This document shows, piece by piece, positions 4,291 to 57,373 of a DNA stretch of 64,000 nt. The stretch covers positions 6,650,036-6,714,035 of the forward strand of contig CP136069.1 of the NCBI GenBank assembly GCA_032622095.1, given 5' to 3'. The notes beneath the pieces were generated by a model, which was not told the DNA's origin, did not search any database, and saw nothing but the letters and a program-made list of their open reading frames with translations. Numbering within the stretch: the stretch's first letter is position 1; each line of letters begins with the position of its first letter. The position numbers and the translations under genes are program-made. The stretch comes from Siphonodentalium dalli (taxonomy: Eukaryota; Mollusca; Scaphopoda; Gadilida; Siphonodentaliidae).

Positions 4291-5662
4291 TGGCTACGAT
4301 CTTGGCATCCACACTGTATCCTGTTGACATTGTTTTATATTAATGGACCAGAAAAGTCAAAGATTATGGTCCATCTCAGTTCTGTCTCAACGTTCTGCCC
4401 ATTTCCTTTCAATAAATATTGCCAAAATCACAAAAGAGGTTCTCGGCAAAATTACATACTTTAAAATGAATTTGTCATGCCCCATATGGAACTGGGACAA
4501 CTGGGAATAGAACATGTAGTTGTCAGTTAATTAACTAACACGCATAATAACCAAGTGAGTCACAATTTGCTACCTTTTCGGATAATGCAGAGAATGTTCG
4601 GGATATATGTAAAAAATTAGCATTTTACAAATTTGGTTGCCATTTTGGAAGCCATCTTGAGCAATTTGGTCTATAAACACCGTAGTGTGACACATTTAAG
4701 ATAGACCAAAACAATAAACACCTTTCAATCCAAAGATAGTTATATTTTACCTGAAAAAATGGTCCAAACCTGAAAACTTATTTTTGCCAATATGTATGTC
4801 AAGTTTTTGAGAGAAAAGTCCGATATTTTTGACGATGTCAGTGGTGAAAATAGTAAAAATTAACCATGGTGCATCGGGCATGTTAGTATTCAATGAATAG
4901 AATGCAGAATAGCCAATTTTATATATCAACACAACTTGTAAGCGATTGCAGGACACGCTGGTGTAATATTTACAATTTTCCATATTTTGGCGGCTATATT
5001 GGCAGCCATTTTGAGCCAAAGTAAGAATTTTGGTTCCAGTGATTTGGAATATTCATAGGTAACGATATGCCTCACTTACATTACAATGTTCTTTTCATTT
5101 ATTGTTGAAATATGACTAGAATCCCAATTGTGATTTTTTTGTAAAATTTTGTACTGCGTTCTGTAAAATCGAATTTTTGAGGGATTGGAAGGGGCTAGGA
5201 CCCCATTAATTGCATATTTAATTGCTCCAATGATCAGTTAATATACAAAACACAAAATAAAGCCATATTACTCAACCAGTTCCAAACAGCATGAATTGAT
5301 CTAGAAGATATTTGTGAAAAAATGTCATATTTTCAACTTCCGGTTGCCATTTTGGCGGCCATCTTGGATGGTGAGTTTCAATTTTGGCCCAAAAAAGTGT
5401 CATTATGTCTTAGCTTCACGAAAATGTATACATTTGTGTATATTTTACTAGATTTTCCCGCTATAATTTGCATAAAACTGACTTAGGGTCTGGTCTGAAA
5501 AACGGCGGCCATGATGGACGCCATCTTGTCTGGAGTCTAAAAGGCCACTTTTTTTTTCTTGTTAACATTTCTTAAAAGTTGAAGGATATAATACGGAACA
5601 AAATGAGTGGGGTGATGTTAAGTCCCAGGGGGTGCAAGGGTACCCCTATTAGCTCCCGGACT
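4291..5662 (+). repeat. Unique part of the foldback right arm
   Basis: Matches 12752-13928 directly and 9004-10380 in reverse complement. The region 4701-4910 (ATAGACCAAAAC...) is kept here and in the left arm, but is deleted at 13168. No protein was recognised; frames such as 4747-5019 (-) follow the repeat. Confidence 0.8.
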
Positions 5663-5753
5663 TGACAGGTAATGATTCAATCATATTTATTTCAGCTGGT
5701 GATTGTCAAAGTTGAATTTGATGACTATCTGTTTGTGTTTTTATTATTTCCAG

Positions 5754-5873
5754 TTAGCATACGAAGCCTTCCGATCACGTGAGTGTCAAATTACTGCCCC
5801 ACGCCAGTGTCATGCACGTCAGACGATCAACAGGAAGTACATGAATTTATTGAATTATATACTTCACATATGA
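5754..5873 (+). CDS. Possible small 3' exon (LAYEAFRSR...), unit 2
   Basis: Paralogue of 1693-1812 with the same TTATTTCCAG acceptor, open frame of 39 residues and TGA. It ends NYILHI rather than NYIHHI. Same caveats: it could be a 25-nt microexon ending at the GTGAGT donor, or non-coding. Confidence 0.25.
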   Translation, partial: LAYEAFRSRECQITAPRQCHARQTINRKYMNLLNYILHI

Positions 5874-6096
5874 CGTTATGTATTTATTGAAGTACATACT
5901 TCACATATGACGATATGTGCAAACGATGCCAATATAACATCACAAACAGGATGTTTTTGCAATGGTTACCGGGTGGTCCAATACTAGAGACAACGTTTCC
6001 ACTCCATAGTATAACATTTCTACTGTTCTTATATATATATATATATCTTTCTTTAATACGTTGACTGCCAACTGCGAGTTGTCTTGTACTTTCTAT

Positions 6097-6300
6097 GTGT
6101 TACTGAGCAGTGAGTGACACCCAATATGTATTACAGATAGTCTATCTCTTCTATGTATTACTGAACAGTGAGCGACACACAATATGTATTACTGAACAGT
6201 GAGTGACACTCAATATGTATTACAGATGGTCTATCTCTTCTATGTATTACTGAACAGTGAGTGACACACAATATGTATTACATATGGTCTATCTCTTCTA
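6097..6300 (+). repeat. 58-bp VNTR, unit 2 (about 3.5 copies)
   Basis: Shortest of the three paralogous arrays of the CAGTGAGTGACAC / GGTCTATCTCTTC repeat. Confidence 0.88.
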
Positions 6301-7359: not shown

Positions 7360-10300
7360 GTAGATACTCAACATAAGATAGTTATGTTTATACGAATCAT
7401 CATTACGAGTTAAAGCACTTCATAGTAAATACATAATTAAACACATTATTGTAATCTTACATGTTATTAAAGTGATATGAAACTCTCTGTTGCGGCTCAC
7501 AGGGAATACATTTGCTCAGGGCAGGTCATTCAATAATTTCTCTGTCAAAGTTGCCAGCAAACAACACAATTATTTCGTATAAATTATATAAAGTGACTCT
7601 CGTTGTCTCTCATTCTTATTTGCTTATCGCTGATTTGTTCGGGGCGAACGAAGGATTGTTTATTTACGTGTGTGTGTAGTACAGACATCGTGTTTTAATA
7701 AATGGCACAGTCCATATTGCTGAATGATTTTACAGTGATAGTTTAATTGTGAATTCTTCAAATGGCTGTATTGGTAGAGCGTATGCTATTAGTATGATGT
7801 AGTGGAATAAACACGTAATATGTCTTAAAATTTGCCCTGTCAAGAGACTCAATACTTAAAGGGATACTGTACTCAAATGTTGTTGTTGGTTTCTATAGTC
7901 TCGAGTCGTGAATAAGTTAACCAGATTTCGATTATTTGAAAGTCTGCTGAGTACGAAGTAATGTTACGGACGACAGATTAGTCGGAATGTGAAAATACAA
8001 ATTGTCGTTGTCGAGTAATTTTTGTACAGTTTTCAAGCAAATATATCAAATAAATGTTATATTATATGCATACTAATCCCGTACACTCATTAAGTTAGTA
8101 TATAGCCACTAGCCAGTGAGTGCCTTGGGTTTACGCCCCGTATCAACAATAATTGTTTACACGATCTTGTGTGCCACGCGTTTTCCAATCCACTATCCGC
8201 TAATTAATTTGATTACGTCTTGTACACGGAAATTCTTAATTTAATTTATGGCTCCAGCCATAAATTAATTTTATATAAAATTATTAACTTTGATTTTAAG
8301 ATGACCTATAAACCTGAACGATTACAAGATACATCTTCGACACAAATTACTTATTGTTCTATATATCATCGATATTAGATCGATGTCATTACCGATAATT
8401 TATTGAAAATGGCGTACAGTATCCATTTAAACAATTACTCTGTACGCCACGAATTGAAGATGATGGCCTGAGAACGACAAGACCAATCGACAATTTATGT
8501 CAAGGTAACCGTCGCGACTGACACCTTACTTTTAAGCATTGCATATATATATATGACAATATACATGTATATATATCACACAATATTTGGTGGAATTACA
8601 CATTTGATAAGTGTAAAAGGCCTCTGGTCAGCCTGTCGGTACATCTCTCTGACTTGGATTTTGTCATTATGGTGTACCAGGTTTGGTGTTAACTTACCCC
8701 GGCAATGTGTTACCTGGTCAGACACCCACTGTAGCCTCGTTTCAATTAACCGAATGAGAAATACACCATGTAATCTTATGCTAACAAAATATTTCTTATA
8801 ACTCACTCCCATTATTGGTTAGAATCGCCTAGCTTTGCCCAATATATTTCCTTAAAACCTATTGACTTATGTTTTGTTTAAAAAAGCACTTGTCAATCAC
8901 GAATCTAACTGATTTTAATAATCCATTGGTATGGAAACTGCAATCAACAAATATGGCATCTGCAGTCGAGAAATAACAATTGCTAATTAAGTACAACCAA
9001 TTTAGTCCGGGAGTTAATACCCTTGCACCCCCTGGGACTTAACTTCACCTCACTCATTTTGTTCCTTATTATGTCCTTCAACTTTTAAGCTATGTTAACA
9101 AGAAAACATAGTGGCCTTTTAGACTCCAGACAAGATGGCGTCCATCATGGCCACCGTTTTTCAGACCAGACCCTAAGTCAGTTTTATACAAATTATAGCG
9201 GGAAAATCTAGTAACATGTATACAAATGTATATATTTTCGTGAAGCTAAGACATAATGACACTTTTTTGGAGCAAAATTGAAACTCACCACCCAAGATGG
9301 CCGCCAAAATGGCCGCCGGAAGTTGAAAATATGACATTTTTTGCACAAATATCTTCTAGATCAATTCATGCTGTTTGGAACTGGTTGAGTAATATGACTT
9401 CATTTTGTGTTTTGTATATTAACTGATCATTGTAGCAATTAAATATGCAATTAATGGGGTCCTAGCCCCTTCCGATCCCTCAAACATTCGATTTTACAGA
9501 ACGCAGTACAAACTTTTACAAAAAATCACAATTGGGATTCTAGTCATATTTCAACAATAAATGAAAAGAACATTGTAATGTAAGTGAGGCATATCATTAC
9601 CTATGATTATTCCAAATCTCTGGAACCATAAATCTTACCTTGGCTCAAAATGGCTGCAAAAATGGCCGCCAAAATATGGAAAATGGTAAATATTGCCCCA
9701 GGGTGTCCTGCAATCGCTTACAAGTTGTGGTTGATGTACACAATTGGCTAATCTGTTTTTTATACATTGCATACTAACATGTCTGATGCACCATGGATCA
9801 TTTTTACTATTGTCACCACTGACATCACCAGAAATATTGGATTTTTCTCTCACGAACTTGACATAAATATCGGCAAAAATTAACTTTCATGGTTCGACCA
9901 TTTGTTCAAGTAAAGTGTAACTATCTTTGGATTGAAAGGTGTTTATTGTTTTGGTCTATCTTAAATGTGTCACACTACGGTGTTTATAGATTAAATTGCT
10001 CAAGATGGCTTCCAAAATGGCAACCAAATTTGTAAAAAAGTTAAAAGTTAACATATCCCGAACATTATATATTCTCTGCGTTATCCGAAAAAGGTGGCAA
10101 ATTGTGACTCACTTGGTTATTGTACGTGCTAGTTAATTAACTGACAACTACGTTCTAACTTGTTTGTCCCAGTTCCGTATGGGGCATGACAAATTCATTT
10201 TAAAGTTGCAGGATGGAATTTTGCGGAGAACCTCTTTTGTGATTCTGGCCATATTATTGAAAGGAAATGGGCAGAACTTTGAGACGGAACTGAGATGAAC

Positions 10301-25214: not shown

Positions 25215-27618
25215 TCATTTTGCTCCACACGTAGACAATATAACAGATTAAGAAAGAAACTGAGAAAAAAATTCACTGAGTCTCTAACTGAAGATATGAA
25301 CAACATAAATCCGAACAACTCCAAACAATTTTGGAAAGTATTTAATAATTTACACAAAACAAAAACTGTAGCAAAATCGCCAATTACAGACAAACAATGG
25401 ATAGAACACTACACCAAATTACTAACTACCCATGATGATCAATCAATGACGTCTGAACAAATATCTACTGAAAAAAATATATCTGATACAAATCAAGTCG
25501 ATAAAGATACACCATTAGAAAATCAATTTCTAAATAAACCCTTCACATGTTCTGAAATTAAGAAAGGAATAAAAAACCTTAAATCAGACAAGAGAGAAGG
25601 ACCCGATCTTATACTAAATGAATTCATAAAAAGCAGTTCAGACATTCTGTCACTAACTATAACTAAACTATTTAATAAAATACTTGATTGCGGAACTTTT
25701 CCTGAAGAATGGAACCTGTCTTTACTCACATCTATCCAAAAATCTGGTGACCCAACTGACTGTAATAATTATAGGGGAATAAGTATAACCAGCTGTTTGG
25801 GTAAATTGTTCACAAATATTCTACAAAAGAGACTCAGTGAATACTTGGAAACTGAAGATAAGTTATCTATGAACCAAATAGGATTCCGCCAAGGAAGTAG
25901 AACAAGTGACCACATATTTTTTCTGAAAACAATTTTAAATAAATACATTTTATGTGATCAAAAGCAATTATATGCTGCATTTGTTGACTTGAGGAAAGCC
26001 ATTGATAGTATATCAAGACCATTATTATTCAAAAAATTACAAGCGAAAGGTATAAACGGGAAATTTTATAACATAATAACAAGCATGTACTCTAACACTA
26101 TGTATGCTTGTAAATTGGACAATGGTTACAGTGAACCATTTAAAGCAAATATTGGTGTGAAGCAAGGTGATAGTCTTAGTCCAATATTATTTAATTTATA
26201 TGTTGATGATATCACAGAATATATGCACTCCCATCTGTCTGCACCAATATTATTACATGAAACTAAATTTAATCATCTACTATATGCAGATGATTTGGTC
26301 CTCATTTCTGAGACTCAAGATGGTCTGCAAAACTGCCTTGATAGTCTTGAAAGATACTGCAATGATTGGAAGCTAACTGTTAACACTAATAAGACTAAGA
26401 CAATGATATTTTCAAAAAATGTTAATATAGATCACAGTGAACAACATTTCTATTTTGGACCTCTTGAATTGGAGATGGTGGATGAATATAAATATTTAGT
26501 TATTATTTTTCACAAAGGTGGAACCTTAATCAAAGCTGCTGATAGCTTATCAGACAAAGCTAAGAAAGCATATTATGCCATAAAAAGAAAACTAAAGGAT
26601 TATCCAAATTTATCAGTGAAAACATGGATGCAAATAGTCAATTCTATGATAATTCCAATAATGACATATGGATCAGAAATATGGATTTCTGATTTAAATA
26701 TTAACCCTAACTCAATGAAACACATATTTAGTTCATGTGTTGATAAAACTTATACTTCAATCATGAAAGACATACTAGGTGTTAACAGTAAAGCTACAAA
26801 TATTGCAGTATACTCAGAACTCAATACTATACCAACATGCTTAAAAATGTTTCACTCAGCATTCAAATTTCAGAGGAGGTTGATGGAGGTCAGTAAATCT
26901 GGGGACTCATCTTATAGACATAAATTATTAATCTCTGCATTCAATGAAGATAACCTAATTCAGAAAATCAGGCCAAAAATGTCATGGGCTAATTCGTTGA
27001 CTCAAATAGAGAAATTTGTGGGCCAAAAACTCACAATTATGAATGGATCGGAATTAAAAAACTTAATAACAGTTACATATAACTTAAAAGTTGAAAATGA
27101 TTATAAAAGAATTATGAATCTCAATGAAGGTAAACTAAGGTTTTACAGCAAAATTTATGGAATCACCAAACTCCAAGACTATCTCACATATAACATTCCA
27201 AAGGCAAATAGAAGAGAATTGACTAAATTGAGGATTAGTGCTCATGGCCTACATATTGAAACAGGAAGATATACTAGACCAAAAAAAGACGTTTCGGACA
27301 GATTGTGCAACTTTTGTCCCAAACAAGTTGAAGACGAAATACACTTTTTATACTATTGTACTATGTATAAAGACTTGAGAAGAAATTATGACATATTTCA
27401 ACTGGGGGAAAATATTAACAACCCCAAGATGCTGCTTAATCCAAAAACCTTCTTTGCAACAAAGCAAATATGTAATTTCTTCAAAGAAGCCCTAGATAAA
27501 CGTAAATCAAACATACTCTCGAATTAATCTATTATTATATATTAACGACTAGAGCTATAGCTCATATTACGAAATATTAACAAGAGGTTGGTATAGGGTG
27601 AGTTAACCAACACATTAA

Positions 27619-43827: not shown

Positions 43828-43832
43828 AATGT

Positions 43833-44184
43833 TGTTACGCCGAGTTATGTAGTAACTGACGAGTTTTGTGGTAGCTCACGAGTTATGTAGTAACAATCGG
43901 CGATTTATGTGGTAGCTCACGAGTTTTGTAGTAAAATCGACGAGTTATGTAATAATTTCAGGTTACGAGTTTTGTAGTAAAATATCGATGAGTTTTGTAC
44001 TAATACTAGTCAGTTTCAAAGGAGCGTTTGATAAAATCTTATATAGTAAATGCAATGTTTTTTGTGTAATTGTTTGTGTGATGGACGTTAATGACACTGT
44101 AGCTCAACTTGATGTTGGTCCCTCGTCACTGCTGTGCCCTTTCTCGGCAGATCTGAGCCAAACTTCATACCTAGAAGTACTATT
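43833..44184 (+). repeat. Left terminal inverted repeat
   Basis: About 352 bp. It begins with subterminal repeats; from 44023 comes GGAGCGTTTGATAAAATC, GTAAATGCAATGTTTTT, GGACGTTAATGAC..GTAGCTCAACTTGATG and CTCGGCAGATCTGAGCCAAAC, all present in inverse order at the right end. Confidence 0.85.
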
Positions 44185-45032
44185 AGCAGGGACTCTAAGG
44201 TCCCAAAAATGGCCAAAGTGTGCAAAATTGGATAAAAACATGAAACTTGGTGTACACATAGTTCATGATATGAGGGTTAAGATAAGAGCGAGACCCAATC
44301 GTGAAAGTGACCTTGATGACCTTGAGGTCAAAGTCAAAATTTCAATTTTTCACAGGCGATATGAGTTATAACATTTTAAAGACAACACATTACTTATACA
44401 TATCACAATTGCATAAATTTGTCTTCAAATATGCCATATTAGTCACTTTTATAACAAAATCTACTATCTTCTTGAGAACTTTTCATATTGAATCTAAAAA
44501 AATAAGTTGGTCATCCGAATAGCTGCAAAATTTCCATGAAAAAATGAATATAAAGTCCCACTTATAAAACATTCTCACTAAATGCCACCACAATCCACAT
44601 CATTGTATTTGCATATATATCAGCGTACAATACAAGAGTGAGACCCAAGCATTAAAATCACCCAGATGACCTTAAGGTTAAAGGTCAAAACTCAGTTTTA
44701 ATATGATCATACGCAATCGTAATAAACGAACCAAAGCTAAATAAATCACATAGGCGTTTCTGCATGTAGCGTTTAAAACAATTCTTGTCACAATCACTTT
44801 ATATATTCCCACCAAATAAGATCCACATGCATAAGGCTTATGTTTGGTGGGGTAATTATAAATAGTTATATATCTTGTCGAGAGCATGAAACTGAAACTA
44901 ACCATTATATAATTGGCGTACTGGGGGAGCTCCCCGCTTCAGATACTCAAAATGTTCATTTCACTCATAACATATCGTCATGTCGATTTAAACGATAGTC
45001 GACAAACAACGTCATCGTGTAACTTTCACCAA
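44185..45032 (+). repeat. Left internal region with AAGGTCA-type blocks
   Basis: GTGACCTTGATGACCTTGAGG (44308, in parts) and GATGACCTTAAGGTTAAAGG (44663, in parts) are two diverged copies about 365 bp apart, each preceded by GAG(C/T)GAGACCCAA. Similar AAGGTCA words are near 55830-55860. The 127-codon frame at 43988 runs through the TIR and is not supported. Confidence 0.6.
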
Positions 45033-45034
45033 TA

Positions 45035-46390
45035 GAGACCTTTCGCAAAACTCACGTTTATGATTACGGATACGGATAGAGTACTACGTCACCAACATTT
45101 GTGTACTTTCTAATGGTTGTCGTATTTTACTATCCGTAATAACGGTTACGATTTCGTGGTTTCTAATAAGCTCAAATAACACCTGAAATTTATTTTCTGC
45201 AATATATCACTTTACTCCGTTCGAGACTGTATATGTATATCATGTAAACCATCCAGTTGTATTGAGCTACGACCTCGGTGTGCTGTTAAGATTGGCAATC
45301 ACTCTACTCGTCGTCGTGAATCGCGAGCTTCCCGCGAAATAAGATCGCTATTCACAACGGATAGTCATCGCTACAAAACTTTGCAGTAATATAAGTGCAC
45401 TATGAAACCAGTCGCCAATAAAAACACAGCTGACATGGATTTGGTGTTACTAAAAGAATAGTTGGCACACCCACCGACATCACCAGAGCTCAGCCGTCTC
45501 TGTTAGGTTTGTTCTTTGCAGTTATTTTAAATTTAAAAAACACAACTCGCACAAATGCGGCATTTAAAGGTACTCAATCCGATTAGATGTCCCCATATCA
45601 TCAGATTCCAACAACAACAATTTTGTTTTTGAAATACCACTTCTGCATGTTATCAGAATCGAGTAATTGCCCAATATTAATGCTGACCACAGTCAACTAT
45701 AGTATAAAATTGCCCAAAACCTGTTATTTATCAATATTTTGTTCAACGAAATTTTGCCGGTTTGTCAAATATCTGACACAAAAAAGCCACTTGATGCACA
45801 TCGCTTCTACCGTGTCGACTTTGTTTCGATTTGGTAGTACCAAATCACAAGTGATGCACATCAACCGTATGTCGGATTTTCTAAACCCAAAGAGGTGATA
45901 GGCCTGTGCAGCCGAAATCGCATTGAAATCAAATTGCGGACTGGAAGGGTCTTGAAGTGGTGGAGTCGTGGTTGATGTGAGGTCTAAATTCAGGAACCCC
46001 TCTTCCTCCATCAGCATAATGTCTATCAGGTCATCCATGATAACAACGAACTGAATTTCCACCACATATGACCTGACATTTATACCTGTATTGCCGCAAT
46101 ACATCACGAGAATCCCGGGTCGTAGGTTGTGACTGGTCGAATAATTGACAATAAACAGGTCATGATTATCGCATTGTTGCAAATGAGACGATAAGTGAAG
46201 TATTAAGGGACTGTATACCAAACACGCGCTTTAAGTTCTAAAAGTGGTACGAAATAATGATGATACGTGTTCGTCAAAACTCTTACGCGTTGTCGTTTTG
46301 CGAAAGGACTTTTTGGCCACACGGATAGACTTACGACTACGAATAGCTATCCGTATTCGTAATCGTAAACGTGAGGATGCGAAAGGTCTC
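45035..46390 (-). mobile_element. 1.36-kb TIR element with Harbinger-like transposase fragment
   Basis: GAGACCTTTCGC..CTCACGTTTA(T/C)GATTACG(G/A)ATACGG at 45035 is inverted at the right end (finishing GGTCTC, 46390), about 44 bp. TA lies on both sides. It is nested inside the 13.5-kb element and holds the transposase fragment at 45724-46221. Confidence 0.75.
45724..46221 (-). pseudogene. N-terminal fragment of a PIF/Harbinger-like transposase
   Basis: 165-codon minus-strand frame; a more likely start is the Met at 46036-46038 (MDDLIDIMLMEEEG), giving 104 residues. The segment AYHLFGFRKSDIRLM, then NKVDTVEAMCIKWLF, has the order and spacing of the helical N-terminus of DDE_Tnp_4 proteins (F.F.K.DI ... 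G.EALC..L.R). The catalytic DDE part is missing, since the frame stops and the element's right side has no continuation. Harbinger transposases cut and paste elements with short TIRs. Family assignment is by remembered motif layout, not alignment; an ISL2EU-type relative is possible. Confidence 0.5.
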
Positions 46391-46392
46391 TA

Positions 46393-48150
46393 CTGACTGA
46401 ATTCGCGTGGAACTGAATGTATCTTCTGCTTTGTTCATAAGTATGTGTTTTCATTCTATTCAAGAAAATAGGATATATATGGATTATCAGATGCATATAA
46501 GTATGCAGACTTATGATAACAATCAAATCCATATTAAATACTATCTTAATTCCTTTTGCACGGTATAGTCTCTACAGAACAATGCAGTATCGATCAACAG
46601 CTGTGAATCGGTTGGAAAATAAAGCTTTGAGATACACGTAGATCGTGTTGAGTTGTGGTGATTTCAGTTTATTTAAAAAAATATTAAAGCTTCCTAGGGT
46701 CCGATGATTTGATCCAGTAGAGTGCCGGAGTAGACCCGTTAGAAATTCAGTATGGACCTACTTTCCCTTATAAATAAAAAGAAATAAATTATTTGATGAC
46801 GTTTATATAAATAGGAGAATGTTGCATGTCGACCGATTTGGGTTGGCCTCTTGGCAGCCGATTACGAGATTAATGCGTTAAGCCCACCAATCTACTGTGC
46901 GACGTTCGTGCTCCCCAAATTCAAAACAACAGCGTCGTATTAGATAATAATTGGTGACGTCACAAAATCAGATATAGTCTATATACGACCCAAAGCGTCC
47001 GGCTTTGGTTCGTTATAAAATTGTTAATGGTGTGAGCTGAGCCTTAATTATTCCTCGATATTTGTCCGAAATTACATATATGTATCTCCAAATATATTAT
47101 AATACTGAACTCTCAGGAGTTCACTGAACTCCCAGGAGTTCTATCAATGTATGAACATATATTTCAGTAAATGTTGATTATAAGATCAAAAATACAATGT
47201 ACATGTAAAGTCACAAAAATAAAATGCCAACGTGATGCCAACAAGTTATACATTTTAGGCACATGTGTTCAATATATGGATGACAAGGGTTTTGCAAAAA
47301 GTATGTTACTTTTATTAAATAACATAATCACTTTTTGCGGTGGCAAAACATTGGCATGCTGACATGGTAATCGATTCTCTGGTCAGTATTCAAGAAAATG
47401 AAAATCGTCGGCAATGTATAGAAAGATTATATGTTGAATATGTAGAACCTACATGCATTCAATTTGGTAACAATTACGAGAACATAATAACTATCATTAC
47501 ATGCACACCCAAGACATGAGGTTTGTTGTCCAGAATATATCACCATCATGTTATTGGCATCAAAATGGTGGAATATAATTTAGCTGTTGGATAAATTGGT
47601 ATGAAAGATTAAGTCATGCTAAAGATAGAACTATAGTGTGGATACAAGAGCGTTGAACATAGACATATCCCTTACTAAAAACCGTAATATATATATATCA
47701 TACCTACACGTTTTGTGCTAATTCTGATTACTCGTCCATCAATTGAGAATGAGCTCACTGATAAAAAAAAACAGTTCGCTCCCAGTGAATGTTGAGATCT
47801 CACCACACAAAAGAAAGTGATCCTTTGAAAGGTCACACAGTTATTGTGCTAAAATCATCCCATGTTGGACAGGAGCAGTCATATACTGTGCCATATAAAT
47901 TATAACAGTGGGGTTAGATACTTGTTGTTGTTGTGTAATATCATCTTCTGGCCATCACTCTGGTCACCAAACTAGTGTCTAGCATCGTGATATAGCATAG
48001 GCTTTGATTCACTAATTCCTGAGATATACCCTGTTGGTCAAATTAATTGGTTATCTCTTGAAAAAAAGATGTTTAGTTTTTGAAAGAAATGCGCAAACAA
48101 TGCTATAATAATATCTTTTCGCAGACAATAAGTCATTGTTATGATACTGA
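46393..48150. other. Mixed dispersed repeats, no gene recognised
   Basis: 46410-46580 is directly repeated at 58040-58215 (GAATGTATCTTCTGCTTTGTTC). 46835-47030 is inverted relative to 58255-58445 (TTAAGCCCACC..ATCTACTGTGCGAC; CAAAATCAGATATAGTCTAT). 47040-48150 shows nothing that could be supported. Confidence 0.6.
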
Positions 48151-49889
48151 GGTGACGTTTACACATAGCCGGTGAAGCCGTTACCCGGCGAACCCGTTAA
48201 CCGGCGAAGGTTAGGCAGAGTGTTTACACATCGCCGGCGAAGATACGCATATATTCATGTGTCTCCTTTGCTTGTTTGTAGTTTTCGTTTTAGTTCTCAC
48301 TGAACTGCAATATGATAAACATCTTGTAAATATCTAGCCGCTTAATGTTAGAGGTATGGTTGGGCAGTATACTAGTGCAATGAAACTTTTTAGAAATGGA
48401 AATGCGAAATTATTAATATCCAACTCAAACTTTCAGGTATTGCTATTGGTATAATTTTAAAGATATTTAAACAGCATTGTTAATGGTTTGTTTGAGTTCA
48501 TAGAGAGCCTGTGAAGTGAGTGTCGCACCAAAAGCATGGTCATTGTCAGTTTTGAGATCTTTTCGTCGCATACATCTACAAATTGGTGTCTAATCATTCG
48601 GATTGGATTTTATATTATATATATAAGTTTCAACATCGCGAATCAAATGTGACACATTTCCGTGTGTACATTATACAATAAAATATGTTTTTTCATTTTA
48701 CTTGGACATTCACCATGCCCATGTATGTAGGGCCGTGGCGATGGGGGTGTCTCATTCCAACTTTAATCAAAATATTCAAAAGCTGGAAATTCATACCTGA
48801 CACGGCATTAGTTGGAAATTTGACATCAGCAATATGTTGAAAACATTGGAAATCTTAAGGCTGGATGCTAGGATTTTGCAATTTTCAGGGTTCAGATTAA
48901 AACAAATTCTCACACCTGGCTATAACCATGGTCGGTCGATAATATTATGTCTTGGTCCCGCCCCCGTTGTCAGCTAAACAGCTATCTAATTTAATTTAAC
49001 TGAATCAAATCTGGGTTCAAGCTGCTTGACGTCACGAGTCAGACCACTAAACATGCTATGATTGGGCAATTTCCAGGTTTAGACACAGGTTCAGATCTAA
49101 AGGAAATCGCTCAATACGGGGCAGTCGAGAGGATTATTGTGAGTGGAAAGTTAGATTAGAACCTAAGTTCCCAACGTGGTGCGTAAATTGGTTTACGCGA
49201 ACTTGTGAGTTTGGTGAGATTCAAGGTTTGGTGCAGTTGGAAATTCCAAAGTTGAACAGTCCCACACCTCCAAATCAAGCCCTCCAGACCCGTCACTGTG
49301 TATATGTCCACGGCGCACTCATATTTAGATTATTGAACTAATTGTCCATTAAGTTTGAATCCATTGAAACGTGCCATCCTATTTATTCCATATAGATATA
49401 TGAACATACATGTACATGAACACGCACATTTAATTCCCTCGAATGCGCAACAAATGTACCATGCACATGCAGAGTACGCGTGTACCATCATCAATTAGTA
49501 TTTATAATAATAGCTTATAACCAAGGTGCGTGACCACCGACGGACAGCTGACCAGAGACAATCATACTGGCACACTGACCAATATATACACAGGTGAAAA
49601 GCGGGCTGGTCTATCAGCGATTGCACAATAAAATTGTTCGAGTTAATTGTTGAAAGGAAATCACCCATGACGGCATGACCCCAGATAAACATCTAACTTA
49701 ACCAGAGCGAATTAGAATCCATACGACAATCAGGTGATTGTACTAAATAATTTTATCCAAAAGTTGAAAACCGTATAGCTGAGTATCCGGATAGCCGTAA
49801 TTCTTATCCGGCGAAGTATAAACACTCCATTCTTATCGCTACCGGCTAAAGCGAATACGATCTTCGCCGGGTAATGTATAAACACCCCC
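48151..49889. mobile_element. 1.74-kb TIR element with CCGGCGAAG repeats
   Basis: Left end GGTGACGTTTACACATAGCC and right end (inverted) GGGGTGTTTATACATTACCC. Both have multiple CCGGCGAAG words (about 48195 and 48230; 49815 and 49863 inverted). CTGA flanks both sides, a possible 4-bp TSD. No coding frame above 65 codons lies within. Confidence 0.65.
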
Positions 49890-49984
49890 TGAATCCTAAA
49901 GCAAGTCATTATTACGCCACCTAGTGTGGTGTTACTAGCATTTGTTTTTTTTATATCGCATGGAGTACAGGGCGAATGTATTCT

Positions 49985-50470
49985 TGGAGATTGTTTGTAC
50001 CTTACTCAATCGTACCGATATAATCACGTAGATGCCGAAATTGTAAAGTTAACGCCAGCGGTGTATAATACGTTTATGAAAATATGATAAATCCTATCGA
50101 TAGAGTCAGGACAGGCTCAAATTGTAAACTTAAAGTCACCGGTGTAATAATATCTTGTTGAAAATATAAATTGTATAACCTATTGGGAGCCCATAATAAA
50201 TGGGAATAACCTATTGGGAGCCCCTGCATGTAGTGAACTGAATTGTGGGTATTTTATGGAGATTGTTTGTACCTTACTGAATCGTACCGATATAATCACG
50301 TAGATGCCGAAGTTGTAAAGTTAACGCCACTGGTGTATAATATGTTTATGATAAATCGTATCGATAGAGTGAGGACAGGCTCAAATTGTAAACTTAAAGT
50401 CGAAAATATAAATAATCTGATAGCCTGAAAATATTGTATAACCTGTTGGGAGCCCCTGGTGTAGTGAACT
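49985..50470 (+). repeat. About 270-bp tandem duplication
   Basis: GGAGATTGTTTGTACCTTACT occurs at about 49987 and 50259, in parts identical through CGATATAATCACGTAGATGC and GGACAGGCTCAAATTG to CCTRTTGGGAGCCC. The frame at 50243-50428 derives from it. Confidence 0.85.
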
Positions 50471-50769
50471 GAATTATGGGTAATTTTAATTGGAGTGCGC
50501 ATGTCTGTTTTTTTTGTAGTAACCGCCATCTTTTATCTTTGGAATTATCGGCGTGTTTTATGAAAATGTCACCAAGATTTCTCCACTCGATTCTTTTAAA
50601 ATGCACCCTAATCGGTCAAATTCTTTTGATAATTCTATCTAAATACATCTTAGCTACTATTCGGATCTGCTTTCCCGGTCGAAAAAGGTTTAGTTTGACC
50701 AAAACGGCTATTGACAAAAGTTTGTTTGTAAAATAGCGTACTCGATAAACCCGGCCGTAGTACGGCCGT

Positions 50770-51150
50770 AGATGGTTATCGAAAACAAATTCAATTTCTT
50801 CCATCTAAAAGATAATTACGCGCTGGACTCTGTCATTTTAAGAATATATAAGTATTACACACAGACACACGAATTCTCAACTCAAAATTTTGAAAAATGA
50901 CAGTTTTGTCAACATAAATCGATTTTATTTGCAAATCCCATGTTATTAAAATTTAACTTATTGTTAAATTTTATCATCGAAAAAAATTCATTTCTTCCAC
51001 CTAAAACATAATTATGTGCTGTATCCTATCATTTTAGGAATATATACGTATCCCACTCAAACACACCAAGTCTCAGCTTAAAATTTTGAAAAATAAGAGA
51101 TTTATCAACATAAATCGATTTGTATGGCAGATCCCATAAATTTTAGGGCC
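50770..51150 (+). repeat. About 205-bp tandem duplication
   Basis: ATCGAAAA..AATTCA.TTCTTCCA.CTAAAA starts both copies (about 50777 and 50977); both end CAACATAAATCGATTT and GCA.ATCCCAT. Confidence 0.8.
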
Positions 51151-51228
51151 CTTCAAATGTTTTCTGAGCTGTTCCATATTGGCACCAGAGTCCATATTTG
51201 ACTGGTTCTACATGATAATTGTGCAACA

Positions 51229-52090
51229 GTACAGTCGCGTTACTTTATACGTCAACATTGGTCATTATCACTCGACAAATTTATTTCGGTCTATCGTATC
51301 AACCCCTATTTCCCCCGCGTAGCCTGACTAAGTGTCAACATTGGTCTTTATCGCTCCACTAATTTGTATCATTTCATCGGTATGAATTCAATATCCAATT
51401 ATCCACATATAACCAACCCAATCTCTAATCCCAGTCCAATTTATTTATTTTTTTCATCGCTATAGTCACGTTACGAAATATTTTATTGAGTGATACTTGT
51501 ACTTATATGTCTATGGTATTACTATAGTATACCGTATACGTATATCAATTGCTATTCCTTTCTATATAATTCTGGTGCCATCTATAGAGATAGAGATAAT
51601 TTCCGACCCCCCCCCCCCGGGCCCCCCCAATTTTATATCATTGCTGCTTTAGTACAGTCGCGATGCATTACATGGCAACATCGCTCCACTAATTTATGTC
51701 AGTTCATCGGTACGAACCCCTTTTTCTCCGAGTCCATATAACCAAACCAACATCTTATCCCGGCCTAAATTATTATTTTTACTTTCATCGGTATAGTTGT
51801 GTTACATACATATTTTTTATCATTTGATTCTAATTTGTATTGTACCACTATAGAAGTCCATAAATTACTATTCTGGCACTATATAGAGATGACTAAAATT
51901 CTGACACCCCCCCCCCCCCTATTTTATAACCTTGTTGCAACAGTAGAGTTGAGATGCATAATATGTCAACATTGGTCGTTATCGCTCTACAGATTTATAT
52001 CGGTTCAATCCTTAGTTCCCTGTAATGCCCACCCCTCCCTCAATTTATTTTTTCATTTGTATTATAGTCTCGTTACGTACACATTTTTCT
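51229..52090 (+). repeat. 300-420-bp degenerate tandem repeats with (C)n tracts
   Basis: ACAGT(C/A)G(C/A)G(T/A)T at 51229, 51653 and 51943 is followed in each by CAACATTGG..ATCGCTC, TTCATCGGTA..AACCCC and TATAGT..GTTAC. C-runs at 51608 and 51906 sit at corresponding places. The frames at 51490 and 51799 are parallel translations. Confidence 0.75.
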
Positions 52091-52320
52091 TTTATAACTT
52101 TTGCTTCAACGCGCCGAGTTCTAGCTGCTGCAGAGAATACAAAACTGACAACATATTGAAATGTAAGCAGGCTTCAAACTAATATTATCCAATAAAAACT
52201 CTGGCTACATCAGAAATTTGTGTATAAGGTGTACTCGCATTTGTTGCGTTAAAAAAAAAAAGGTCCCAAGTCAAGGTCCAAATCCCCAACAAACTGATGT
52301 GAGGTTTAACTCCATCTACA

Positions 52321-52718
52321 TACCGTAATGTCCAAAGTAATTGATCACTTAACCACAGCAGAATTATGGGTAATTTTTCAAGATTTTAAATCCTGAAAAA
52401 TTACCCTTAATTCTGCTGTGGTTAATTGGTCAATTACTTTAGGCATTACTGTAGCCCATATAAGGATGTGAGGTCTAATGATAACTCCATCCACATACAG
52501 TAATGTCCAAAGTAATTGACCACTTAAGCACAGCAGATTGTGGGTAATTTTTCCGGATTTTAAATCCTGAAAAATTACCCATAATTCTGCTGTGGTTAAG
52601 TGGTCAATTACTTTGGGCATTACTGTATCCCATATAAGGATGTGAGGTCTAATGATAACTCCATCTACATACAGTAATGTCCAAAGTAATTGACCACTTA
52701 ACCACAGCAGAATTATGG
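52321..52718. mobile_element. Tandem array of CAGTAATG MITEs
   Basis: Two complete hairpins (52321-52453, 52496-52627) and half of a third (52670-52718). Each has TACAGTAATGTCCAAAG ends and inner CCACAGCAGAATTATGGG, separated by an identical 42-43-bp spacer (ATAAGGATGTGAGGTCTAA..ATCTACA). Period 174-175 bp. Same family as 18454-18669. The 115-codon minus frame is repeat-derived. Confidence 0.92.
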
Positions 52719-53057
52719 CGTTCAATATGGTCTACCTAATTCTGCTCCAAAAACATGTATATTGAATATATGGATGTTTATTGGGGGGAAACCGATTATT
52801 TCAATGATATTTTCATTAACTGGCATCCAAAAACCGACCTACGGGAGCGCGCTTCGCACACGACTGTTTCTTAAGTATATGTGCATATTTAATAAGTCAA
52901 CAATTCGAAGCACAACAAATAAGATTGGCGGGGTCCCTTGCGCTTGCGCGATCTGTCCATCAAAACATATTTAGACATCTCAAGACACGTAAGACCCAAT
53001 AACTTAATATACAGAATAGATACATCTATTGCCTGAGTGACTAATATTTATATTTGT
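52719..53057. other. No gene recognised
   Basis: No repeat or exon that could be supported. Confidence 0.4.
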
Positions 53058-53283
53058 TACAATGGGGTCAAATAGTTGCGAAGCCAGCACCACAATTCTT
53101 TCCCTCCATAGTAAATATTAAAACAACTTATAAAGAATTATTTATTTACCTTATATTTGGTATGGAGCGTCCTTGGTTTACTGGAGTTCAGATTGTTAAC
53201 ATCACGTCACCAAGTCAATTACTCGCGAAGCCACAGCCATAACTATGTCCCTCCATAGTAATTCTCAAAACAACTTCTTAAGA
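53058..53283 (+). repeat. About 145-bp tandem duplication
   Basis: TGCGAAGCCAGCACCA..CCCTCCATAGTAA and CGCGAAGCCACAGCCA..CCCTCCATAGTAA followed by AAAACAACTT in both. Confidence 0.7.
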
Positions 53284-53689
53284 ACAATTGACCAGGTCAG
53301 TCGCGCAATTATTGGAAGAGCCACGGTCAATCATTTTTTTTTAAACCAAATTTTACATTTAAATTATTCCTTTATTTAACCAAAAAAAAAAATTAAATGA
53401 TAAAATTAACTTTTACTACTTGCTAAATTTTATCTTTTAATTATTTCATTTAAATTTTAGACTAAAATTTAAAAATATACAGTCCCAGTATTTACAGTGT
53501 ACTAAGTCCAAGTCTTTATAATCTGTTGAGTGACCCCACAGTCATTTACTTGCTTTGTTAGTAATAATTTGAAGGATTACTTGTTTAAACGCAATTGTTA
53601 TCAAAATATTTTATGTATTTTTTATAATTTATATTTATATGTAATACTATAATCTTGGTGGCGTTACCATTTCTGACTATGGTTTTCTT
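53284..53689. other. AT-rich, no gene recognised
   Basis: Includes an A/T tract with AAATTTTA/TAAAATTT words (53330-53480) that can fold back loosely. Confidence 0.4.
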
Positions 53690-54800
53690 GTTATGGCATG
53701 TTACGGCTGGCTCTCAGGTGTTTACATCTCGGATTCGCTAGACAATGTGTGAAATGGTCATCATGGGGGTGGCCATCATACTAGTATATATGTATCAAGG
53801 GGCCGCATAACATGTTTATGGACTGGATATTTACATCAGTGGCATGTTACCCGTATCCCAATATGGATCATTATAGTGCCGGTATTCAGAAAGTTGTCTG
53901 TCAGATTGTCAGAACAGAACAGCGATGTCTGGGATCTGGATTTCTATAATAGTCTCCCCATATTATGTTATCCGGTACCTCAATAGTGCACAGAGTAGTG
54001 GTATCTAGAAACTGGGTGCATGTCCATAGTGGAGGACGAAAGCAGTGACCAAAATCACTCAGATTCCAGCATTAATTGGTCAGCTAAAGAACCCACCACA
54101 CATAATAACATATATCCATGCAACCCATATATGTATTTAGCCGATGAGCGTCTAGGATTGCCCATGTAGCGGCATAGCGATACATAGGGACTGATTAGTC
54201 AAAGTGCCACATGTTATTGGTGACCAATTACATATACCGGTATAAGACTATTCCTCTAGTTTACCTGTGTCTTTGGATTGGGATGAAATTGCGTGTCATC
54301 TGGGGCGGTATATTGTACGTATTCTGAAACTGGCTCGGCAATGCTCTTGTCTATATTGATGTCTAAAATATCCATATTATGTATCCGTATTGTGGTGGTC
54401 AATTACAAGAGAAGCCACTATACTCGGACAGCTCTAGCAATGACAATATATTCTTATTCTGGGACTGGGCTACCCAAATACAATTCCAGCGGTGGTCGGC
54501 CAAGTTAGCCATATCCAGAACCTTCTTGGCTGACATGGGATGGCCGTAGAGCACTTCTCCGGTGGTAACCAGATTACCTATATCCGATATCCTGGAATTA
54601 GGATGCCGATCGAGTGCACCAATATCACCCATGCACATCCTGAAACTGGGCAACCAATGTGACAGTTTCCCGTCATGACCAGATGCCTGTATTCTGGAAT
54701 AGTATGATCATTGTGCACATCTCCGCGTATGATCAAATTCCCCATACACTGCTTGGCCAGGGTACCCATCTATGAGAGTGGTCCGATTGCTCATGCACTC
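53690..54800. repeat. Old degenerate minisatellite
   Basis: Loosely repeated words every 45-60 bp (ATCCGATATC, CTGG(G/A)ACTGGGC, GTGGTCGGCCA, CCCAT.CAC). It is the most decayed of the window's arrays, and the frames at 54293-54769 follow it. Confidence 0.45.
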
Positions 54801-55980
54801 ACGGGGACTAAACATTCTTCAATTCTGTAATGTCAGGACTTTGTCTGGTAGTACCAACTCTTAAGTATGGAACTGTTTTAATTTTTAAACCACCAAATTC
54901 TCTTCTGTATTTTATGAAGAATAGTAGCTAGGTAACATAATCTTGAGATATGCTGTTAGGAGTTGAATATGATTTCGATATTTCGCCGACTTCACTTTAT
55001 TCGATTTAATTTTCAAAACAGGTATAAATTTTGACTACTACTACATGCGACACGCATATGGTCCGATCTGTATTGGCTTATGACAATGCAATATTAGTGG
55101 GATGAAAATAATTTATCAAAATGGTGTATCTTTGTTGATAAGTGCCGTGTGCTGGTGAAACATGGGTTCCAATTCTGCTCATTTTGGGTCTTTTATTCAT
55201 CATAATAACGTATCTGATAGTGTCAAAATAATCATCGGAACACCAGCTAACTCCATTCACTTTGAGTGGCATGTAAACTCGTCATTCGAATTGAATAAAC
55301 TGATATTAGTTTGGTTTATTGATAGGTCATATCTTGTCAGGTTTACAGAGCGATGAAAGGCTCTGCAGAGGATATATTTCACTGACAATAAATCACTGAA
55401 CACAGGAAAGCAACTGACAAACTTTCCCCATTACATGAATCCCTGTGGGTGGATTACAAACGCACGTATCGGTTTCCCCATCACTAATTGTAATGACTTA
55501 TGTTTGTCTAATGCAACACTTACCTTACCAACTGAGCCACTTTGTGCCCTCACTTATATTGAATATAATTATGATTGTTGCAATGTGTTTGAATGAAACA
55601 TCTAACCTGATATGCCTAAACTATTCCCTCTCTCAAGTGACAATTGACAACTTGGCAAAATTCAAAGTTCAAGGTCACCGAAAACATTCCAACTCTCATA
55701 TAAAGCCCCAAATATTCCGATGTTAGTCATATTATGTCTCCCCGGTGTGGAGTAATGCATACTGTGCACAATTCATACCCTTTTAGCTCCCGTATGCGCA
55801 TTCCAGGCAGCCTCTAGTTAAAATTCATGTTGATGACCTTCACCTTGACCTCACGGTCATATGAGGGGTCTGCTAATTTGGGTCTCGCTTCGAACTGAAC
55901 CCCCATGGTCTACTCTATATGTGTGCCAATGTTCATGCTTTTATCCAAATTTGCACACCCCATCAGCTAACAGCCCCTAC
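54801..55980. other. No gene recognised
   Basis: Interior of the 13.5-kb element. ATAAAGCCCCAAATATTCCG near 55700 and TTCACCTTGACCTCACGG near 55842 resemble the left internal region, but no frame is supported (93- and 96-codon frames have no features). Confidence 0.45.
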
Positions 55981-56330
55981 TATATGGCCATGTTATTAAC
56001 TTGGACCTGGTCCCCATTACACCAGACGTCGCGTTCTGACGGTAATGACGTTGTAGCTCAACCTGATGGTGGTCCATCGTCACTCATCCGCTGTTTATCG
56101 GCAGATCGGGACGAAACTTGGCACATAGACGTATTGTGGCCATGTTATTGATGTGGGACCAGGTCCCGATTACGTTAGCCGTCGCGTCCTGACGGCAATG
56201 ACGTTGTAGCTCAACCTGATGGTGATCCATCGTCACTCATCCGCTGTTTCTCGGCAGATCGAGGCGAAACTTCGTACCTAGAACTATTATGGCCATACTA
56301 TTAACTTGGAGCTGGCCCCGCTTGTAATGG
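55981..56330 (+). repeat. Two tandem copies of the inner TIR sequence
   Basis: TGACGTTGTAGCTCAACCTG at 56045 and 56200 (155-bp period). Each is followed by TCGTCACTC.TCCGCTGTTT.TCGGCAGATCG and GGCCAT..TATTAACTTGG. They match 44085-44190 in the plus sense, opposite to the adjacent right TIR. Confidence 0.8.
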
Positions 56331-57000
56331 TGGTCCGGTGTCACTCCTCCACAGTTTATCGACAATTATTATGGGGCGTCGTTATTCTGTGTTGGTTTAT
56401 ACGGTACCATATTCTTAATACCATGTTATATTGACAATACATAATACAATTATCTATCTATCTAGCCTTACCCACCACACATACTCCTGTGTTCCTTACT
56501 TTATGTATCCCTCATTGGTTGACCAGTTTGTGTGAGAGCTTACCAGCAACAAATGGACTGACTGTCCACTATTACTGTCACATGAACCGTTCACGTTTTT
56601 TCTTTTATTTTTCAACTGCATGTATTATAATTTAATATGCAGAGTGCTACTTTGTCAAATCACATGGGTATCCACAAGAACGAACCAAGAACCAAGAGGT
56701 GGCGTAGGGTTGTCTATATTGCAAAAACAAAGTGAAACGATTATTAGTAACAATAACTGGATGGTAAGCATGCATGACTCGCCGCTCTCTTTTGTTTCAC
56801 GGCTACTGGTGGTTGCGTATATTTCTTAGAGTGCACAAGACGCGAATCCATTATGCACTGAGAGAAAAATGACGAACCACATTTGGTTTTCCACCAAGAT
56901 AGATAGTTTATTCTATTTCACCAATACAACATGGTATTAATAAATAGGACGCGACGTCTGACGCAATGGGGGGCCAGGTTCAAGTTAATAACATGGCCAT
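56331..57000. other. No gene recognised
   Basis: ATCTATCTATC at about 56452. The rest is unclassified interior of the 13.5-kb element. Confidence 0.4.
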
Positions 57001-57368
57001 AGTACTTCTAGGTACGAACTTCGAAGTTTGGCTCAGATATGATGAGAAACGACGCAGCAGTGACGAGGGACCAACATCAAGTTGAGCTACAACGTCATTA
57101 ACGTCCACCACACGAAACACTTACACAAAAAAAACATTGCATTTACTATATACGATTTTATTAAGTCCAAACCCGCCTTTGAAACTTACTAAAAATTGTT
57201 GCTACAAAACTCGACGAGTATTACTCGTTAGCTTGTTTTTTACTACAAAACTCGTCGATATTTTACTACAAAACTCGTAACCCAAATTACTACATAACTC
57301 GTAGATTTTACTACAAAACTCGTGAGCTACCACAAAACTCGTCAGTTACTACATAACTCGGCGTAACA
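57001..57368 (-). repeat. Right terminal inverted repeat
   Basis: Reverse complement of the left TIR with small indels (for instance an extra CGAGTAATACTCGTCGAG block near 57215). Inner limit at CCTAGAAGTACT (57001-57012). Confidence 0.85.
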
Positions 57369-57373
57369 AATGT

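Follow-up and report, generated by a model that had tools for sequence, protein, structure and literature searches.

How does a transposon-like structure come to span 13.5 kb between long inverted ends, with an exact 5-bp duplication at its flanks and no visible transposase? The question is raised by a locus of the mollusc Siphonodentalium dalli (assembly GCA_032622095.1, contig CP136069.1, positions 6,650,036-6,714,035), a stretch of 64,000 nt that we call the window and whose own positions are used throughout. A sequence-only reading of it had offered two possibilities: a non-autonomous element of giant size, or one in which nested insertions had taken the place of the genes. We find that the copy in the window is a short non-coding transposon of ~1.7 kb with terminal inverted repeats (TIRs), interrupted by an 11.8-kb insert at 44184-55982. 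The 13.5-kb length is not an original property of the element: 11.8 kb of the 13.5 kb are a separate, later insertion with its own target site duplication (TSD). The feature itself is unremarkable: a nested insertion has divided a short transposon, and the apparent 'giant' is an annotation trap that was resolved through the comparison of copies.

A short transposon split by an insertion

The whole outer structure occupies 43833-57368, has the termini TGTTACGC...GCGTAACA, and is composed, with its flanks, as follows (strand given where one applies):

43828-43832: left 5-bp TSD of the outer element, AATGT (exact; exact in 32 of 42 end-pairs of the family)
43833-44183, + strand: left TIR together with the left part of the short element, which is like a miniature inverted-repeat transposable element (MITE), with an array of 19-21-bp subterminal motifs (87-92% identity with the first 351-367 positions in seven further short copies)
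44181-44183: left copy of the nested element's 3-bp TSD, TAT (three-base overlap of alignment blocks in six of seven copies)
44184-55982, + strand: nested TIR transposon (TAGCAGGG...CCCCTACTA), 11.8 kb including its own later inserts (recurrent sharp boundaries; collinear with copy L070; joined junction in 53 of 57 loci)
55983-55985: right copy of the nested element's 3-bp TSD, TAT (short-copy alignment)
55986-57368, + strand: right part of the short element, with tandem repeats, core and right TIR (alignment to copy L039)
56003-56308, + strand: tandem repeats of 152-153 bp inside the right part of the short element (repeat analysis)
56999-57368, + strand: right TIR of the outer element (TIR alignment)
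57369-57373: right 5-bp TSD of the outer element, AATGT (exact match to the left flank)

What had been read at the ends from the letters alone was borne out. The two TIRs align locally over 351 and 370 bp with a score of 451, where 200 shuffles reached 49 at most, in agreement with the ~350 bp of inverted similarity that had been claimed; read in inverse orientation, their outer 52 bp agree at every position, the TGTTA and TAACA ends lie at 43833 and 57368, and AATGT is exact on both flanks. The terminal motif arrays are also there, with seven matches to ACGAGTTTTGTAGTA at each end at two mismatches or fewer. A six-frame Pfam scan of 44184-55982, with the outer parts 43833-44183 and 55983-57368 outside it, returned no family at E≤0.1, in line with the claim of no visible transposase, and Rfam gave no match over the window at the gathering threshold.

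The split itself emerges from the alignment of seven other short copies to the window. All seven cover 43833-44183 with their first 351-367 bases, and in six of them the next alignment block begins at 55983, overlapping the first by three bases (TAT), the right block then reaching 57368; these six short copies, that is, run across the point at which the window copy is interrupted. Copy L039, for example, matches 55983-56237 with its positions 349-602 (89.8%) and 56366-57360 with its positions 792-1759 (91.7%). When the 40 bases on each side of the insert were joined and searched in 57 loci (L002-L058, some of them halves of one element), the joined junction was found uninterrupted in 53, at best with 98.75% identity over 80 bp without gaps, and was not found in L034, L035, L036 and L056. 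Two points weigh on the other side. One of the seven short copies, L030, lacks the split junction, and the junction test can match any 152-bp monomer: because the junction sits within a 152-bp tandem repeat, part of the 53 matches are to other monomers.

Two other explanations of the 13.5 kb have to be set against the split. The first takes the structure as one giant non-autonomous element that moved as a whole, as the exact TSD and intact ends would allow, and as the existence of family members that are truly 11-13 kb and gene-less might encourage. The interior, however, comes with a TSD and inverted ends of its own, its boundaries are met again elsewhere in the genome, and it is unlike that of the true long forms: the match of one of these (11.7 kb) to the window element extends over no more than 1.16 kb and is confined to its outer parts. 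We consider this explanation very improbable; the proposal of a giant non-autonomous element fails for the window copy and holds for its relatives with the same ends, gene-less and 11-13 kb long. The second supposes two unrelated short copies or solo ends that by chance lie in inverse orientation 13.5 kb apart. In the part of the assembly in which every exact end was listed (C1 to C5:165.15 Mb), 60 of 244 exact ends do have no convergent partner. TIRs that occur mostly alone as short MITEs, with an accidental pairing in the window, had been named as the outcome that would undo the original proposal; short forms, at 0.3-2 kb, make up about half of the pairs (45 of 92). Yet the left and right halves in the window join up at a single point of the short form, where six of seven copies have the 3-bp overlap, and AATGT is common to both outer flanks. 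Since both halves line up with unbroken single short copies, and the TSD agrees, the pairing is not accidental, and a chance pair is barely credible.

The nested insert and its inner layers

The insert that splits the short transposon is itself a TIR transposon, of a family with a 3-bp TSD and TAG...CTA termini. Its ends are diverged inverted repeats (TAGCAGGG... / TAGTAGGGG...; score 95, shuffle maximum 35), and its boundaries recur in the genome. With the first 846 bases as query, 35 of 39 non-self matches among the best 40 of 1,934 candidates begin exactly at 44184 and the other four nine bases later; with the last 600 bases, 36 of 39 non-self matches among the best 40 of 261 candidates stop exactly at 55982. 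Among the matches listed, 16 left and right matches pair by eye, 11 of them at 3.5-5.5 kb and five at 6.4-16.4 kb. One copy of the nested family, L070, measures 4.5 kb and has TAA at both flanks; it runs collinear with six pieces of the insert (44181-44700, 47013-47122, 47160-47288, 47497-48137, 53705-54914 and 54940-55984), which gives the inner layout:

44184-44700, + strand: conserved left end of the nested family (matches L070 8-539 at 88%)
45030-46395: third-layer element of 1.4 kb with inverted ends (CAATAGAGACCTTTCGCA...TGCGAAAGGTCTCTACTG), of an abundant family (inverted arms; genome matches)
47013-48137, + strand: nested family resumes (L070 537-1560, three pieces; collinearity)
48138-53704: block of 5.6 kb inside the nested element, without counterpart in L070 (L070 comparison)
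53705-55982, + strand: right part of the nested family (L070 1603-2845 and 3457-4534; right-end search and L070 collinearity)

The blocks at 44701-47012 and 48138-53704 are most simply later inserts into the nested element. The genome matches of the third-layer element mostly start at query positions 847-850 (45030-45033), with up to 97% identity; its right edge is placed by the inverted arms alone, because the query stopped at 46184. In L070, a six-frame Pfam search detected no coding domain, the sole weak match being TXNDC16_N (E 0.064, 14.3 bits against a cut-off of 27).

Of the alternative offered by the sequence-only reading, the nested insertions survive, in the form of a different TIR transposon inside a short copy; for the replacement of genes there is nothing in the data, the copy being short and non-coding. 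A 168-amino-acid open frame lies within the third-layer element (45724-46230, - strand), without a Pfam match at E≤0.1 in six frames; by eye we take it to be a little like part of a PIF/Harbinger-type transposase.

Proposed history

We are highly confident that the 13.5-kb structure is a stack of insertions, and the following order would account for it. A short non-coding TIR transposon of ~1.7 kb, with a core of 152-bp tandem repeats, entered AATGT and duplicated it, as the TSDs of its family indicate. A member of an unrelated, abundant TIR family then inserted where the left TIR ends on its inner side, a step that the uninterrupted copies and the separate TSD show. The nested element was later interrupted itself, among others by the 1.4-kb element at 45030-46395. 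This last step is well supported for the 1.4-kb element, which has a sharp left edge; for the 5.6-kb block we infer it.

The outer family across the genome

The sequence-only reading had called for a search for further copies of the TIR. In the host assembly (2.23 Gb, 9 contigs), the 24-bp end has 416 exact copies and its reversed control none. The 352-bp left end gave 842 first-look candidates, and most of the 40 that were scored, the window included, are 90-92% identical. For the TSDs we used 52 entries, namely these 40 scored copies and 12 further pairs of ends more than 2 kb apart, with the window taken once; nine had one or no recognisable end, another was removed because it was an inverted duplicate, and both ends were present in 42. 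The 5-bp duplication is exact in 32 of the 42 end-pairs, where about 0.05 would be expected by chance on a rough estimate; four pairs have one mismatch, two a 4-bp match only, and four at least two mismatches. L011 and L012, which lie in opposite orientation, look like a single duplicated locus; counted once, they leave 31 of 41 independent pairs. The exact TSDs often include ATG or CAT. At L029 and at L030/L032 the flanks are mutually reverse complementary over 6 bp, rather than forming a direct 5-bp repeat.

The 244 exact ends listed for C1 to C5:165.15 Mb resolve into 92 convergent neighbouring pairs and the 60 unpaired ends mentioned above. Three pairs are spaced at 72 bp, 45 at 0.3-2 kb and 44 at more than 2 kb, six of these last at 11-13 kb. 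Ends are clustered at C2:37.91-38.82 Mb, where the three 72-bp end-to-end pairs occur together with minus-strand ends ~40-60 kb apart; this arrangement suggests that a large amplification, tandem or segmental, has included a fragment of the outer element.

Large gene-less forms

There is a gradual transition from the short forms, which measure 0.6-1.9 kb and bear 152-bp arrays, to gene-less forms of 4-12 kb. Copy L049/L050 (11.7 kb; C1:38657728-38669444) was compared with three other large copies and has 10.8-11.1 kb in common with every one of them. A segment of 2.5 kb from its middle is found, at 99% identity and over nearly the whole query, at six non-self places among the best 40 of 8,449 candidates. 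Because of these six near-identical places, the large forms look recently active. By eye, at least 13 of the match places (that of L049/L050 included) are enclosed by two exact ends that converge and lie within 18 kb of each other; three of them are on C7-C9, where ends preceded by G fell outside the listing. At each end the long form bears 152-bp arrays, and at element positions 8837-9548, ~2 kb from the nearer end, ~33 copies of the 21-bp terminal motif form a further array. Two forms of 4.5-5.1 kb consist mostly of both outer parts of the L049/L050 type, the middle being missing.

Some of the large forms also carry sequences that occur elsewhere. L049:5000-6602 (element ~4672-6274) was matched by itself at 15 scored places, at 92-95% and with the remainder of the 2.5-kb query missing; from this separate occurrence, it is perhaps an older element that was captured or nested there. 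A subtype of 6-8 kb (L045, L061, L064, L071 and L079) has a common interior, 94-96% identical between copies, which by eye includes a reverse-transcriptase fragment of a long interspersed nuclear element (LINE), apparently a piece of a retrotransposon amplified by a DNA transposon.

Because they look recently active, carry satellite-like arrays and keep a fixed 5-bp duplication, the large forms may be informative in two respects. They could show how long elements with nothing but passenger sequence can be and still move, and in what way transposon ends seed satellite DNA.

Relationship to known elements

In its structure, the outer family has features of two broad groups. Conserved dispersed TIRs, a TSD of fixed length and no transposase gene in what was examined place it among non-autonomous TIR transposons; it is like MITEs in being short, non-coding and present in many copies, although classic MITEs are shorter than 0.6-1.9 kb. 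TIRs built of tandem repeats (arrays of 19-21 bp and of 152 bp) and spacings from 0.6 to more than 12 kb are those of foldback-like elements. Polinton/Maverick elements, which have a 6-bp TSD, AG...CT ends and genes for polymerase B and integrase, were rejected, the family having a 5-bp TSD, TG...CA ends and no Pfam family in the parts scanned.

By anatomy, the closest described case among those compared is that of Tetris, a foldback element of Drosophila virilis, and its MITE, DAIBAM, as presented in passages of PMC4079207: these are apparently non-autonomous as well, have satellite-type tandem repeats in their TIRs, and comprise larger modular forms and a MITE with common ends. The likeness is one of anatomy; the host is another, and the monomer there is ~220 bp, against 152 bp in the outer family. 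Galileo and other foldback-like elements, in the portions of the literature that describe them, share long, internally repetitive TIRs and structural variation between copies; Galileo is placed in the P superfamily by its transposase, a gene that was not recognised in the outer family. Among the top literature matches, in the parts that bear on 5-bp duplications, foldback elements and satellite-bearing non-autonomous elements, there was no description of the outer family, which does not show that the family is undescribed. IS3EU and IS481EU were set aside on their termini and TSD length, as given in parts of PMC10045372.

Which enzyme moves the family

A transposase acting in trans would presumably recognise the terminal motif arrays, cleave the DNA at the TG/CA ends and insert it into the target with a stagger of 5 bp. 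Judging from the termini and TSD, this enzyme would be a DDE transposase, most likely integrase-like and of the Ginger2/TDD type, although we regard that last assignment as evenly balanced. It is our best guess because Ginger elements have termini of the pattern TGTNR, which TGTTA...TAACA fits, and because TDD-4/5 have 5-bp TSDs, like the outer family, together with TIRs of 260 and 297 bp, according to the relevant parts of PMC2836005. A copy with the same TIR that encodes an integrase or transposase, which had been suggested as the thing to look for, was not recognised among the copies sampled, partly by Pfam and otherwise by eye.

Several results speak against such an enzyme. Metazoan Ginger2 elements, in the same parts of PMC2836005, have 4-bp TSDs at RTATAY, unlike the 5-bp TSD found here with its frequent ATG or CAT. 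In the long form L049/L050, Pfam found nothing in six frames over ~6.7 kb of the middle, nor in three forward frames of a 1.3-kb piece of L051. In the 12 end-pairs more than 2 kb apart, open frames of at least 80 amino acids, minus those coded by arrays, were inspected by eye and no transposase was recognised; two of the 12 have LINE-like frames. Sixteen further end-pairs were sampled in pieces for an autonomous copy, again judged by eye, and no transposase-like frame was recognised in them, no genome-wide search for the integrase family having been made. Of the 16 centre pieces, ten match the gene-less forms throughout, three partly (L065, L072 and L077) and three not at all (L059, L060 and L078). 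Among the pairs behind these last three, that at C6:174.76 Mb matches a gene-less form in another piece (L068), that at C5:145.07 Mb has no match to gene-less forms in three pieces, and that at C4:123.12 Mb was sampled once. Because of the misfit of TSD and target with metazoan Ginger2, and because the Gypsy-like integrase with its H2C2 zinc finger was not recognised in the copies sampled, we claim no membership of Ginger2/TDD, to which a non-autonomous derivative could still belong. Full Ginger2/TDD elements measure ~2.8-6.7 kb in table rows of PMC2836005.

Another transposase that makes 5-bp TSDs, described or not, is a serious candidate in place of a Ginger/TDD-type integrase, though we lean slightly away from it. 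The target preference differs from RTATAY, no integrase was recognised in the sampled copies, and Transib/RAG-type transposases also give 5-bp TSDs; Transib ends start with CAC, unlike the TGTTACG of the outer family, and this type was rejected. TG...CA termini with short TSDs are, on the other hand, described for the related IS3 and IS481 families and for Ginger in the parts of PMC2836005 and PMC10045372 that treat them, which favours the integrase-like enzyme. That the family is moved by an undescribed or rare type of transposase, able to mobilise gene-less elements of ~12 kb that bear satellite-like arrays at either end and, internally, the 33-copy array of the terminal motif, seems unlikely.

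Elsewhere in the window, at 25215-27527 (+ strand), a 770-amino-acid open frame resembles, by eye, the reverse transcriptase of a non-long-terminal-repeat retrotransposon.

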